A stretch of DNA of 64,000 nucleotides from Acidobacteriota bacterium (lineage in GTDB: Bacteria; Acidobacteriota; Terriglobia; Bryobacterales; Bryobacteraceae): the NCBI GenBank assembly GCA_025353165.1, contig JANXRE010000068.1:1-64000 (forward strand), in the 5' to 3' direction. The notes beneath the pieces are model-generated. The model did no database searches and was not told the origin of the DNA. It was given only the letters and a program-made list of their open reading frames with translations. How positions within the stretch are numbered: position 1 is the stretch's first letter; each line of letters starts with the position of its first letter. Shown piece after piece: positions 47,196 to 51,180 of the stretch. Both the position numbers and the translations under genes were made by a program.

Positions 47196-48431
47196 GTGAA
47201 GCCCAATCAACGCGTCCCACCCGTCTGGCTGATGGGTCTCTCCAACTCTTCGGTGGGTCTCAATAGCGGTATCGCCTTTTTCGCGGTGCCCCAGTTGCTG
47301 GCGGCGCAGCACGTCTCCGAAGCGAGAATCGCCGTCATCACGGCGGCGGCGATGTCTTCCAATTTCTGGCCGTTCGTGTTCGGTCCGGTGCTCGATGTGT
47401 GGTTCAGCCGGCGGCGGTATGCGACCCTGTTTGCCGCGCTGGCGGGTATTCTGGCCGCAATCGCGGTCCTGAACCTGGGGCACCCGGCGGTGCTGGAAGC
47501 GGCGCTGGTGGCGGGCGCGGCGGCGGCTATGCTCTGCACCACGGCGCTGTGCGGATGGCTCTCCACGGTTTGCCGCGAGGAAGACAAGAACAAGCTCAGC
47601 GCGTGGGTCAATATCGCGGTAATCTCCGGCACCGGGGTCACATCCGTGCTGGGAGGCGAGATGGTCCGTTATTTGCCTGTCGGGCTGGCGGCGTGCCTTC
47701 TGGGCGGCATCGTTTTTCTGCCGGCCGCCATTTTCCTCTTCATTCCTTGCGCGCGGCCCGACGAGCGGCTGGCCGGCGAAAGCTTCCGCGAGTTTGGCCG
47801 CGAAGTGCTCGCGCTGCTGCGCCGGCGCGACGTGTCGATGGCCCTGCTGCTGCTGATTTCCCCTTGCAGTTCTTTCGCGCTGACCAACCTGCTGGGGGGC
47901 CTGGGCGCCGACTTCCACGCCTCGGCGCGGGTGGTGAGCCTGGCCGGGGGCGCGGGCGCGTTCTTCCCGGGGATCCTGGGATGCCTGCTGTTTCCGATCC
48001 TGGCGAGGCGGCGGCCGCTGCTGTTGCTCTATCTCGCCGTCGGCGTTCTAGGCAGCCTGTTTACTCTGAGCGCGATATTTTTGCCCCACACTCCCGGAAC
48101 CTTTGCGCTGGTGCTGGCAGGCGAGTATCTGTTCCAGGCGATCGCGTTTTCCATTCAAGTCGGAATTATGTTCGAGGCCATCGGGCAAAACAATCCGCTC
48201 GCCGCGACTGCTTTCACGCTTCTGTCGGCGGCTACGTATGTGCCGATCACTTACATGATGGTCTTCGACGGCGGCGGTTACTCGTTGGGCGGAATCGCGG
48301 GCAGTTTCGGGATGGACGCCGCCATCAGCATCGCCTCGTGCGTGGCGACCGGTTTTCTGCTGTACCGGCTTAGCGGGAAGTCATTCCGTTTGCGCGCTCC
48401 GGAAGTTTCAGTGACTCACACTCCCTTGTAG
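47196..48431 (+). CDS. MFS transporter, AmpG/PAT-like
   Basis: 411 residues, about 12 membrane helices. Resembles the PAT (AmpG-type) subgroup: NSGIAFFAVPQLLAAQHVSE, then PFVFGPVLDVWFSRRRYAT between helices 2 and 3 (the MFS motif A position). AmpG moves anhydro-muropeptides into the cytosol, which would suit AnmK and LD-carboxypeptidase in this genome, but the subgroup is broad and the substrate is not certain. Convergent with the rtcB remnant, overlapping by 16 bases. Confidence 0.8.
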   Translation: MKPNQRVPPVWLMGLSNSSVGLNSGIAFFAVPQLLAAQHVSEARIAVITAAAMSSNFWPFVFGPVLDVWFSRRRYATLFAALAGILAAIAVLNLGHPAVLEAALVAGAAAAMLCTTALCGWLSTVCREEDKNKLSAWVNIAVISGTGVTSVLGGEMVRYLPVGLAACLLGGIVFLPAAIFLFIPCARPDERLAGESFREFGREVLALLRRRDVSMALLLLISPCSSFALTNLLGGLGADFHASARVVSLAGGAGAFFPGILGCLLFPILARRRPLLLLYLAVGVLGSLFTLSAIFLPHTPGTFALVLAGEYLFQAIAFSIQVGIMFEAIGQNNPLAATAFTLLSAATYVPITYMMVFDGGGYSLGGIAGSFGMDAAISIASCVATGFLLYRLSGKSFRLRAPEVSVTHTPL

Positions 48432-48635
48432 TTGAGAATTGGACAGAGGGTACGGGTCACTTTCACCAGCTCCTTCTGCGCTCTGAGCACGGCGCGGATG
48501 TCTTTGTAAGCGGAGGGCGCTTCGTCGCGGAGTTTCGCGGCGAGGCGGGAGCCGTACCAGATTCCCTCCATCTGGCGGCGAAGATTCCGTTCCGTGACTT
48601 TGCCGCGGGCCGCCGTCCGGCTTGCTCCGGCGCAC
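48416..48635 (-). pseudogene. C-terminal remnant of RNA ligase RtcB
   Basis: About 70 codons on the minus strand read SRTAARGKVTERNLRRQMEG, then LAAKLRDEAPSAYKDIRAVL and end in CPILNYKGV-TGA. This matches the RtcB C-terminus (GAGR..SR, EAPxAYKD, VKG end). Nothing of the catalytic core remains; the 5' side abuts an rbfA-like frame in a different reading frame. It must be nonfunctional as a ligase. Confidence 0.7.
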
Positions 48636-48855
48636 GCTTGCGGGTGATCGCCATGGCAACCTCCGAGCGCAGACGCGGCGCATCGAGGCGGAGCGCGCCG
48701 ATGGCGTCCTCAACGGAGTGGCCGGCCGGGATGAACACGTGCACTAGAAGGCGCCCGCAATCCGGCGCCGGAGAAACGCCGTTGACGAACAGGCCGCTAT
48801 CGACGAGGGCGAGGTTTAAGGCCCGCTGCACTTGCCGACAGAGCTGCAGCGCCTT
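48636..48855 (-). pseudogene. RbfA-like fragment fused to the rtcB remnant
   Basis: Minus frame: QRKALQLCRQVQRALNLAL, then VSPAPDCGRLLVHVFIPAG and RLRSEVAMAITRKRAPE. This is the KH-like fold order of ribosome-binding factor A (N-terminal helix, strands, and the 'R..LA..L..K..P.L' end). There is no usual start before an upstream stop, and the C-terminus stops resembling RbfA exactly where the RtcB-like frame begins. A GTG at 48831 is available but would drop the first helix. It looks like one side of a deletion junction. Confidence 0.6.
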
Positions 48856-48871
48856 TCGTTGTGACTGCCGG

Positions 48872-49371
48872 CCGGAATATGGGCCGGCGGATTCGTTTGC
48901 TTACAAAGCTTCTTCGAACTGCGATTCTTCGCAGCGACGACTATGGTGTTTCAAAACAACGCTTCCCTGTTTGCGCCGAGGCGCACCTCAACTGGTTGGT
49001 TGACAAGAGACGGGAGCCGGTCCGGCCGGGTTTAAGCGGCGGCGGGCAGGCTCGACGGGATCGGGCGGGTGGCAATAGGGGACATGGTGTTCTCCGCTGT
49101 TACGTCGAGTGACGGAACGCTTTGCGGGTGCAAAGTGTCCCGACCGTGCATTATCGCCGGATTTCGGCTGTGGTGCAAAGTCTGGTGGTTCGCATATGCA
49201 CGGCATCGTCAGCCCGGCGGCACCTTGCCCGGATGCCTGGTCCGCATGTCATTGGCTGCCCTCCGACACGAACAGGTTTGACACCTGGTAATAGGCTGTG
49301 TAGGTCGTCAGTGACGAAGATTCCTCTCAGGGACAATAATCCCGTGCGGTCGGCCGGCGCGAGCTCCCACT
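48872..49371. other. 500-bp region without a gene
   Basis: No frame with a recognisable domain on either strand. It contains a nine-base direct repeat GTGCAAAGT at 49128-49136 and 49173-49181 (45 bases apart). This may be decayed coding DNA from the adjacent rbfA/rtcB remnant. Confidence 0.4.
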
Positions 49372-51180
49372 CTATTTGATGGGGGCGGAGTACATGTCGT
49401 CCACGCGGTAGCTGCGGTAAACGATCGCGCCCTCGAGGTCGATCGCGAAAACAACCTTGCCGTCCTGGTTGGTTTCCACCGTCCTACCGTGCAACGGAAG
49501 GACCCAGCCCGCTACCGCACTGTATCCGCCTTCCTTTAGGGTCTGCATCGACCCGCAACACCTGGTGTGAACTCCCAGTGCGGCGTTGTAGACTGGCGAC
49601 GCGATAAGCTTCTCTTCGTCGAGTTTCCATGCCTGGGCGTGGACGCCCATCTCCTTGTCTCCGTCGCTCAAGACGGTCAAGATGTTCGAACCAGCGGGTT
49701 CATAACCCACGTCGTGCGCGCCGGTGAACCACGGGTTCTTGTCGCTGGACTCCGCCTTGAAATCGCCGTCCTTGCCGAACCGCCACAACACCTTGCCGCT
49801 GCCCTTTCCGTCTTGCCAGTCCACTTTCACGACCCAGTTCTGCTCCGGCACGGAGATAAGCAGATTGCCGCTGGACGGGATGTAGTTCAGCGAATTGCTA
49901 TGCAGCCATCCATTTGCTTCGGGAGCGAGCAGGACCGCGGGACAGCCGCCTCCGCCCGTCTGGCACTTTCCATCCTGAAGAGACTTGCGCTTGATATCCA
50001 GATGATCGAAAGCGTTCCAGACGCCCGCGACCTGAAAGTCTTCGTCAAGGTCGACGACCAAATCGCCCAGGACGTCCACGGGCTTCTTGGATCCCTGAGT
50101 TTTCTTCGGCAGCATCCGTTCCAGCCCGGCGATGGCGAGCGTGTGGCCGTTGGGCAGGCGGATAGCTTCGTGATGAAAGCCCGATACGCATTCCTTGCCG
50201 CCAATGCGGCAATCCGAGTGGATTCCGCGGGAGGCCAACTGTTCGGCCACGGCGCCGATGTTGGTCTCGCGGACGATGTTCCCGGCCAGATCCATCTCGC
50301 GCAACAGTTGGTGCGACGTCGTGGCGTTGACCGAATTCGATCCATCGACCAGGGCCAGGAACCGGCCGCCCGGGAGGACCCGGGTCATAAACGCCGGTGA
50401 GAGCAGATACCAGATCACCCGGCCTTCGAGGTCCGTGGCGATCGGCCGGACTTCGGCACCGAGAGAGGCGGCGGCGTAGATCAGCACGGGAGCGGAGGTG
50501 GGAGCGCTGTTGGCCCGGGGCACGGCGACCGATACGGGGCTGAAATTCCCGTCCAGCATGCCGGTGCGGAAGGGCAACCAGCCGCCGGTCTTCACGCGGC
50601 CGCCGGTGGTCCACTCGGCGCGCAGCCGGTACTCGGTTTCGGCGCGCATTCCCGCTACGTATTCGTTGCTGGTGACGGATGCGCGGCAAGCTTTGGCCGG
50701 TGTGCGGCTGGGCTCTTCGCCAACGGCCGAAAAGGCGACGCGGAACTGAGTTCCTTCCGGACAGGGCGGGGCGCTGAACAGGGCGACCAGCGGATGCGCC
50801 GTGGGCGTAACCACCGGCGCGCCTTTCGCCCGCGGCAGGATGCGGAAAGCCAATTCATCCTGCGCCGTCGCTTTCGTCTCGTTGTTGCGCACGTTCATTC
50901 GGATGATCGCGGACTGCTCGAACAGTTCGGGGGCCCAGGCGAAATGGAGCTGCTGGCTGTAGTCGCGTACCATCCGGAACGGCCCGCCGTTTACGCTGAC
51001 CGAGTAGCGGACGACGAGCATCCCCTTGCCTTCGTTCTCGACCCGCGGCATGAGGCCGACGGGTGTTCCCACCATCTGCGGCGAGGGCAGACTGGAATAG
51101 AGGTGAACGGCCAGCGGCTTTTCGTCCGCGCCCGAGCACAGTGCGGCGGACATAATCAGGACACTCAGGAAACTCCGCAT
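49372..51180 (-). CDS. Arylsulfotransferase (ASST) family protein, secreted
   Basis: 602 residues with signal peptide MRSFLSVLIMSAALCSGA. An N-terminal Ig-like region is followed by a beta-propeller domain typical of ASST (PAPS-independent aryl-sulfate sulfotransferase): HHEAIRLPNGHTLAIAG, DVLGDLVVDLDEDF, NPWFTGAHDVGY, GVHTRCCGSMQTLKEGGYS. The family moves sulfate between phenols via a His intermediate in the periplasm; the reactive His is probably one of those in HHEAIR or AHDVG. Many such proteins are sequence relatives of unproven activity. Confidence 0.8.
   Translation of the reverse strand: MRSFLSVLIMSAALCSGADEKPLAVHLYSSLPSPQMVGTPVGLMPRVENEGKGMLVVRYSVSVNGGPFRMVRDYSQQLHFAWAPELFEQSAIIRMNVRNNETKATAQDELAFRILPRAKGAPVVTPTAHPLVALFSAPPCPEGTQFRVAFSAVGEEPSRTPAKACRASVTSNEYVAGMRAETEYRLRAEWTTGGRVKTGGWLPFRTGMLDGNFSPVSVAVPRANSAPTSAPVLIYAAASLGAEVRPIATDLEGRVIWYLLSPAFMTRVLPGGRFLALVDGSNSVNATTSHQLLREMDLAGNIVRETNIGAVAEQLASRGIHSDCRIGGKECVSGFHHEAIRLPNGHTLAIAGLERMLPKKTQGSKKPVDVLGDLVVDLDEDFQVAGVWNAFDHLDIKRKSLQDGKCQTGGGGCPAVLLAPEANGWLHSNSLNYIPSSGNLLISVPEQNWVVKVDWQDGKGSGKVLWRFGKDGDFKAESSDKNPWFTGAHDVGYEPAGSNILTVLSDGDKEMGVHAQAWKLDEEKLIASPVYNAALGVHTRCCGSMQTLKEGGYSAVAGWVLPLHGRTVETNQDGKVVFAIDLEGAIVYRSYRVDDMYSAPIK

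Follow-up and report, generated by a model that had tools for sequence, protein, structure and literature searches.

Remains of an rbfA-like/rtcB operon in a Bryobacteraceae genome and a conserved RbfA paralogue-RtcB gene pair with a possible role in 16S rRNA repair

The window analysed here, a stretch of 64,000 nucleotides from a Bryobacteraceae genome, carries on its reverse strand the remains of two adjacent genes, an rbfA-like gene and rtcB, together with a leader region and a convergent neighbouring gene (Table 1). Resemblance to RbfA in the frame at 48831-48463 (-) stops after the residues RKRAPE, and the end of RtcB is read in a different frame at 48571-48416 (-). The 51-aa ORF in the latter frame aligns with positions 381-426 of the 426-position Pfam RtcB profile (PF01139; E 2.4e-7), scoring 30.8 bits where the cut-off is 27, and the RtcB profile searched against the whole genome matches with its positions 355-426 at 48625-48422 (-) (E 5.7e-9, 37.4 bits). 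Frame translation places the beginning of the rtcB remnant just 3' of the codons for the HGAGRAL motif; all catalytic motifs lie in the deleted part, and what remains is a relic rather than an RtcB. The RbfA-like frame at 48831-48463 taken alone gives a marginal match to the NCBIfam RbfA model (E 0.042) and none in Pfam; its length does not allow a firm family assignment, and its identity therefore rests on its relatives.

Table 1 Positions of the features at the window locus and of the second relic
Feature	Position	Strand	Remarks
Transporter ORF, convergent	47196..48431	(+)	Stop lies inside the rtcB relic, 16-nt overlap; neighbour, outside the operon
rtcB relic	48416..48622	(-)	Final 68 codons with the stop codon; the full RtcB has ~376 codons
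Deletion junction	48623..48624	(-)	2 nt between the relic pieces; 970 bp at this place in L055 and L059
rbfA-like relic	48625..48954	(-)	From TTG at 48954 (probable start) to RKRAPE (48625)
In-frame TAA, 18th codon of the rbfA-like relic	48901..48903	(-)	Assumes the TTG start at 48954
Leader region of the lost operon	48955..49125	(-)	
Leader ORF MSPIATRPIPSSLPAAA, 17 codons	49032..49085	(-)	Pattern match with 3 mismatches
rtcB relic of genome G032	L042 2886-3014 (G032:C150)		42 codons of the RtcB C-terminus, 76% identical to the window's

Both genes are open and adjacent in G033, a genome of the same family. The RbfA-like piece of the window is 62% identical to the G033 protein across 81 aligned columns (E 3e-26, 11 loci searched), and the RtcB piece is 84% identical to the G033 RtcB over 68 aa. 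In the DNA alignment of the two loci, the RbfA-like match ends at 48626 and picks up again in rtcB at 48622. Comparison with the positions in L055 (JAHCHE010000008.1, a Bryobacteraceae MAG) and L059 puts the missing stretch at about 970 bp, a net loss of 968 that cost the rbfA-like gene roughly its 14 final codons and rtcB about 308 of its 376; as this net loss equals 2 modulo 3, the frame changes at the junction. A preliminary description of the locus had read it as an internal deletion scar, in which an RbfA-like frame ending at RKRAPE gives way to an RtcB C-terminus in another frame, and the profile match, the G033 alignment and the bases absent relative to intact relatives confirm this. 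The rtcB core that it reported as absent is indeed gone, although its size is about 308 codons instead of about 400, since this RtcB has about 376.

Additional lesions are present upstream of the junction. The in-frame TAA of the rbfA-like relic stands where G033 has a tyrosine codon (alignment and translation), and the relic has a 21-nt in-frame gap relative to G033. The distance from the start of the leader ORF to that of the rbfA-like gene is 131 nt in the window versus 161-175 nt in 12 intact leaders (L055-L060, L062, L063, L097, L146, L148 and L150), a shortening of 30-44 nt. Together, the stop at the 18th codon and the shortened leader look like a decayed locus rather than a single mis-join. 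The window thus holds an inactivated rbfA-like/rtcB operon whose gene ends are fused out of frame and whose first gene has an early stop.

The substitution pattern bears on the age of this event. Rough dN/dS values, for which synonymous sites are near saturation, were 0.05-0.14 in six of seven comparisons of the window rtcB piece with intact relatives (the seventh was undefined) and 0.05-0.21, where defined, between intact rtcB genes; the rbfA-like piece gave 0.12-0.33 versus 0.03-0.33 among intact rbfA-like genes. The resemblance of both relics to intact genes suggests that the loss is recent relative to the divergence of these relatives, and the window lineage probably lost the module recently. 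No Rfam family reaches its gathering score anywhere in the window. As for the surroundings, the convergent ORF, which by the look of its sequence we take to be an MFS-type transporter, matched nothing in the other 36 genomes of the search. The protein at 49372-51180 (-), presumably arylsulfotransferase-like, has eight matches in its own genome, fragments included; of 37 genomes searched, 15 contain a match, and the same-genus genome G001 contains none. G001 contained no match to either flanking gene of the locus or to RtcB.

A second rtcB relic was found in genome G032 of the same order (Table 1). It sits shortly after another frame, presumably histidine-kinase-like, with no rbfA-like match in the 6 kb of sequence examined there, and its breakpoints differ from those of the window, which indicates a second, separate loss. 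Relics are thus seen in at least two genomes of the order, and further ones may exist. The window scar and the G032 relic together mean that the module was lost at least twice in one order.

To characterize the intact arrangement, the G033 RtcB was used as a single query, as the window relic searched against genome contigs had returned no confirmed locus; the best 80 loci of a longer list, many of them from draft or metagenome assemblies, were scanned with an RbfA-like profile built from these same loci. Of the 48 closest (L055-L102), two were left out: L061, because its sequence begins close to a contig edge, and L078, because 100 N fill the upstream site. The informative loci all (46 of 46) carry, in the same orientation, an RbfA-like gene immediately 5' of rtcB. 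Relative to the first aligned RtcB codon, the spacing in 45 loci ranges from an 11-nt overlap of the RbfA-like frame to a gap of 116 nt; in L100, the RbfA-like domain occupies the same position and the open frame continues into rtcB. The loci come from Acidobacteriota, Planctomycetota, Myxococcota, Nitrospirota and Pseudomonadota, and they include named strains of Sorangium, Polyangium and Nannocystis as well as Parabeggiatoa, a giant sulfur bacterium. The intact unit is therefore a conserved pair, an RbfA paralogue followed directly by RtcB, with loci from five phyla. This distribution and the G033 locus bear out the ancestral order, rbfA-like then rtcB, that had been read from the scar; the preliminary description had allowed that no genome might place the two genes side by side.

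Beyond these loci the association is rare. Among the more distant loci L103-L134 (n=32, of which L117 and L122 start at a contig edge and were excluded), an RbfA-like gene was found in 2 of 30, namely L112 and L130, and the G033 RtcB is 35-40% identical to the RtcBs of this group except L122. In a quick tree of 68 RtcBs, 44 rows with a linked RbfA-like gene and L078 form one clade of 45 rows (SH-aLRT 100). The RtcBs of L112 and L130 place outside it, a position made less sure by the odd composition that the tree program flags in ten rows, these two included. In both loci (L112 1736-3354 and L130 2485-4225, one gammaproteobacterial bin) the RbfA-like gene stands beside an outside-clade RtcB, for which either a change of ligase by the partner or recombination of the operon may account.

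At finer taxonomic scale the pair is sparse. When 396 genomes sampled from the phylum were searched with the RbfA-like protein of G033, 11 matches were obtained. One is that of the window, two are clear and are followed closely by RtcB motifs (G427 and G444), and eight are weak, with no RtcB motifs within the flanks examined. Within the 257 genomes of the window's order, an RtcB of the clade (at least 62% identity) occurs in nine, one of them cut by a contig edge, and all nine have the RbfA-like gene upstream; six coincide with loci named above, and three (G558, G659 and G666) are new. The claim that RNA repair was lost in the window lineage is accordingly only partly borne out. The RtcB profile found no other match in this draft assembly of 98.4% completeness. 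However, the pair is present in few members of the order, some RtcB match of any class, relics and partial genes counted, was found in 38 of 61 genomes of the relatives set, and the check for other RNA ligases covered PF09414, which gave one match below its cut-off. Two loci of the window's own family, L029 and L030, carry an RtcB of another clade with one frame before it and one after it, which we take to be TROVE/Ro60-like and RtcA-like, respectively.

No further gene accompanies the pair consistently: among 255 additional non-overlapping ORFs of at least 100 codons around the 48 loci, no family occurred in more than three loci. Searches with the Polyangium RtcB matched two viral contigs, at 35% identity, and 99 plasmid records, all below 60% and the best 15 of the 99 at no more than 43.1%. 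Among 566 phage records, 32 fell at 60-80% identity; these must be partial, because the ranking multiplies coverage by identity and the best 15 reach no more than 38.4% over 93% of the query. PADLOC contained no model matching the pair. tRNA-like elements before the operon were considered and rejected: ARAGORN called four tRNAs on 47 loci, in L069 (inside rtcB), L090, L102 (downstream) and L030, none of them in a leader.

The upstream protein is related to the ribosome assembly factor RbfA. Pfam RBFA (PF02033) matches 38 of 40 RbfA-like members at E <=0.01, although many of the pair's copies (18 rows) stay under the Pfam cut-off; for the L059 protein the score is 33.9 and the cut-off 34.7. The predicted structure of the L059 protein (mean pLDDT 79.7) has the RbfA fold. 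The first 24 PDB rows returned by Foldseek for this model are RbfA or small-subunit assembly entries, with a TM of 0.84 by target length to 2dyj_A, and VIA-align superposes the model on 2dyj_B, RbfA of T. thermophilus, with Z 13.1 and an rmsd of 2.0 over 90 residues. Identity to known RbfA among the fold matches is low, at 12-31%. A separate, stronger RBFA match, taken as the canonical rbfA, lies elsewhere in 30 of 31 pair-bearing genomes, and in G481 the search found the pair's copy only; the window genome likewise has a separate rbfA elsewhere. The RbfA-like protein is consequently an RbfA paralogue, not the one housekeeping copy of the genome. Its N-terminal extension is variable, and in many members a short motif resembling LCAE..PEDG.DPR precedes the RbfA domain (L065-L068, L072, L073, L087, L090, L094-L096, L098, L099 and L112); this motif is a candidate RtcB contact.

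The RtcB of the pair appears intact by motif content. The D and C of GD.GCG, the NH of GNHF, the H of H(S/T)GSR, HN and the H of HGAGR, which we take to be the catalytic residues, are invariant in 43 of 43 clade rows. With complete catalytic motifs, the RtcB of the intact relatives is a predicted RNA ligase.

In the acidobacterial loci, the pair is preceded by a conserved leader ORF that begins MSPI. It is 17 codons long in the window and in 11 of the 12 intact leaders; that of G558 has 20. A search of the 257 genomes for the leader-ORF pattern with up to three mismatches gave 11 sites in 10 genomes and none with the reversed control; eight sites precede eight full-length pairs, one is that of the window and two, with three mismatches, lie elsewhere. 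The ninth pair, in G661, was missed by the pattern, and its named copy, L097, has the leader. The start of the leader ORF, UCCCCUAUUGC, is complementary to the Shine-Dalgarno (SD) region of the rbfA-like gene in most leaders, and in 9 of 12 intact leaders this duplex is stronger than those formed with base-shuffled SD arms (p <0.05); values above 0.05 were obtained for L055 (0.068), L058 (0.154), L062 (0.330) and the window (0.745). In four of the 12 (L055, L058, L062 and G558), the leader start has an equal or better pairing partner somewhere within the gene body. Arms taken from different leaders pair almost as well (mean -19.6 kcal/mol) as those of the same leader (-21.8 kcal/mol), and there is thus little sign of covariation. 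When the alignment is folded, a hairpin that spans the end of the leader ORF is supported, with double changes at some pairs, and the long-range leader/SD pairing is supported weakly, with a small covariation term. A ribosome placed on the leader ORF clearly frees the SD in only 4 of 11 leaders (L055, L056, L057 and L060), so a leader switch stays hypothetical. The Vicinamibacteria locus L064 has a different leader ORF of 18 codons, without such SD pairing.

Several features of the pair recall known systems. In the 30S subunit, RbfA is reported to act at the decoding centre and at helices 28 and 44 (PMC8201178). Colicin E3 cuts 16S rRNA in this decoding centre, and the RtcB2-PrfH module is reported to protect an E. 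coli strain from colicin E3 and to religate the cut 16S rRNA in vitro (PMC9223846). Taken with the site at which RbfA acts, this precedent suggests that an RbfA paralogue fixed to RtcB forms a 30S repair unit. Like RtcB2-PrfH, the pair combines an RtcB-family ligase with one small, presumably ribosome-directed protein, spreads sporadically and is broken in some strains, E. coli BW25113 being reported to have a truncated RtcB2-PrfH operon (PMC9223846); unlike it, the partner is an RbfA paralogue rather than a release-factor homologue and lies upstream of rtcB. The RbfA-like protein shares the fold and the Pfam family of RbfA itself, yet it is an additional copy, stands beside rtcB and has a variable N-terminal extension. 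As in the rtcBA and Archease-rtcB operons, RtcB lies in a small operon with a helper, but the RbfA-like gene takes the helper's place and no third gene recurs. In erm- and cat-type translational attenuators, a short leader ORF precedes a gene whose Shine-Dalgarno site is blocked. The acidobacterial pair similarly has a short leader ORF and a possible SD block; here, in contrast, it is the leader's own start that would pair with the SD, with support in 9 of 12 leaders only.

On these grounds, we favor the reading that the window holds an inactivated operon, that the intact pair is a 30S-directed unit repairing 16S rRNA, and that the lineage lost it, probably recently; we assign this reading a probability of roughly three in four. 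By analogy with RtcB2-PrfH, we infer that the RbfA-like protein directs RtcB to damaged 30S subunits. It would bind the 30S subunit at the site of RbfA, around the neck and helix 44, when the 16S rRNA is cut, and would bring RtcB to the ends left by ribotoxin-type cleavage, which RtcB would then reseal. In Acidobacteriota, where the start of the leader ORF is complementary to the rbfA-like SD, this ORF could link expression to the state of the ribosome. A more specific and tentative proposal, which we hold somewhat less probable than its negation, is that of an undescribed repair system in which an RbfA paralogue recognizes 30S subunits whose 16S rRNA has been cleaved and brings its own RtcB to the break, and in which the acidobacterial leader peptide responds to faltering translation by turning the system on. 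Regarding novelty, open full texts searched for RtcB together with RbfA or ribosome-binding factor contained nothing relevant, the 2016 RNA repair review by Burroughs and Aravind lying outside the scope of that search, and wider literature searches gave no relevant paper among the matches listed. The suggestion that the arrangement is undescribed agrees with these results and is not proven by them.

Other explanations were weighed for both the pair and the scar. The RbfA-like protein might be a dedicated activator or chaperone of this RtcB, in an Archease-like role and with any RNA as substrate. One-to-one adjacency at every informative clade locus and the lack of a recurrent third gene would fit such a role, and Archease-rtcB operons are known (PMC3973293). 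The predicted model, however, has an RbfA fold, and the occurrence of the RbfA-like gene beside the outside-clade RtcBs of L112 and L130 fits a shared target at least as well, which leaves the activator role rather doubtful. Still on the ribosome, the pair could mature rather than repair rRNA, for example by joining 16S rRNA after removal of an intervening sequence. Such a step would suit a 30S assembly factor paired with a ligase, and the pair occurs in giant sulfur bacteria such as Parabeggiatoa, in which 16S introns have reportedly been found. Yet in G454, the genome that contains L055, 1500 bases of 16S rRNA cover model positions 1-1533 with no sizeable insert; this was the only full-length 16S read, as the other genomes tried gave missing or short matches. 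In G459, bases 1-1220 of the 16S align unbroken. A distribution as patchy as 9 of 257 genomes within one order would also be odd for an essential step, and we regard maturation as unlikely.

Still less can be said for two readings of the scar itself. An assembly or binning artefact, with an intact operon in the organism, might be suspected of a draft genome of 200 contigs in which the junction is known from the assembly alone, and the preliminary description had named an assembly frameshift as a possible source of its reading. The nonsense codon, the 21-nt gap and the shortened leader make this unlikely, the 98.4% complete assembly contains no other RtcB match, and G032 holds a second relic with other breakpoints; an artefact is consequently the least credible of the explanations. 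That the 68-codon RtcB piece has been retained for a function of its own seems barely more so. The piece is open and its substitutions look constrained, G032 likewise keeps only an RtcB C-terminus, and the end of the piece overlaps the stop of the convergent transporter ORF. Against this, the constraint equals that between intact genes, as expected if the loss is recent, the piece is without any catalytic motif, and the G032 piece differs in length and context.

The preferred reading, an inactivated operon that once encoded a 30S-directed repair unit, also has consequences for RtcB more generally. For many bacterial RtcB ligases, to our knowledge, the natural substrates are unknown. Those of the rtcBA operon are expressly stated to be so (PMC7790460). 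We class the RbfA-like/RtcB module as a variant form of RNA repair built on RtcB, and see in the window locus the broken remains of such a module. An RtcB clade that stands beside an RbfA-type gene at every informative locus points to 16S rRNA as a substrate and to a targeting route, and the presence of the pair in named strains of Sorangium, Polyangium and Nannocystis makes both experimentally testable.
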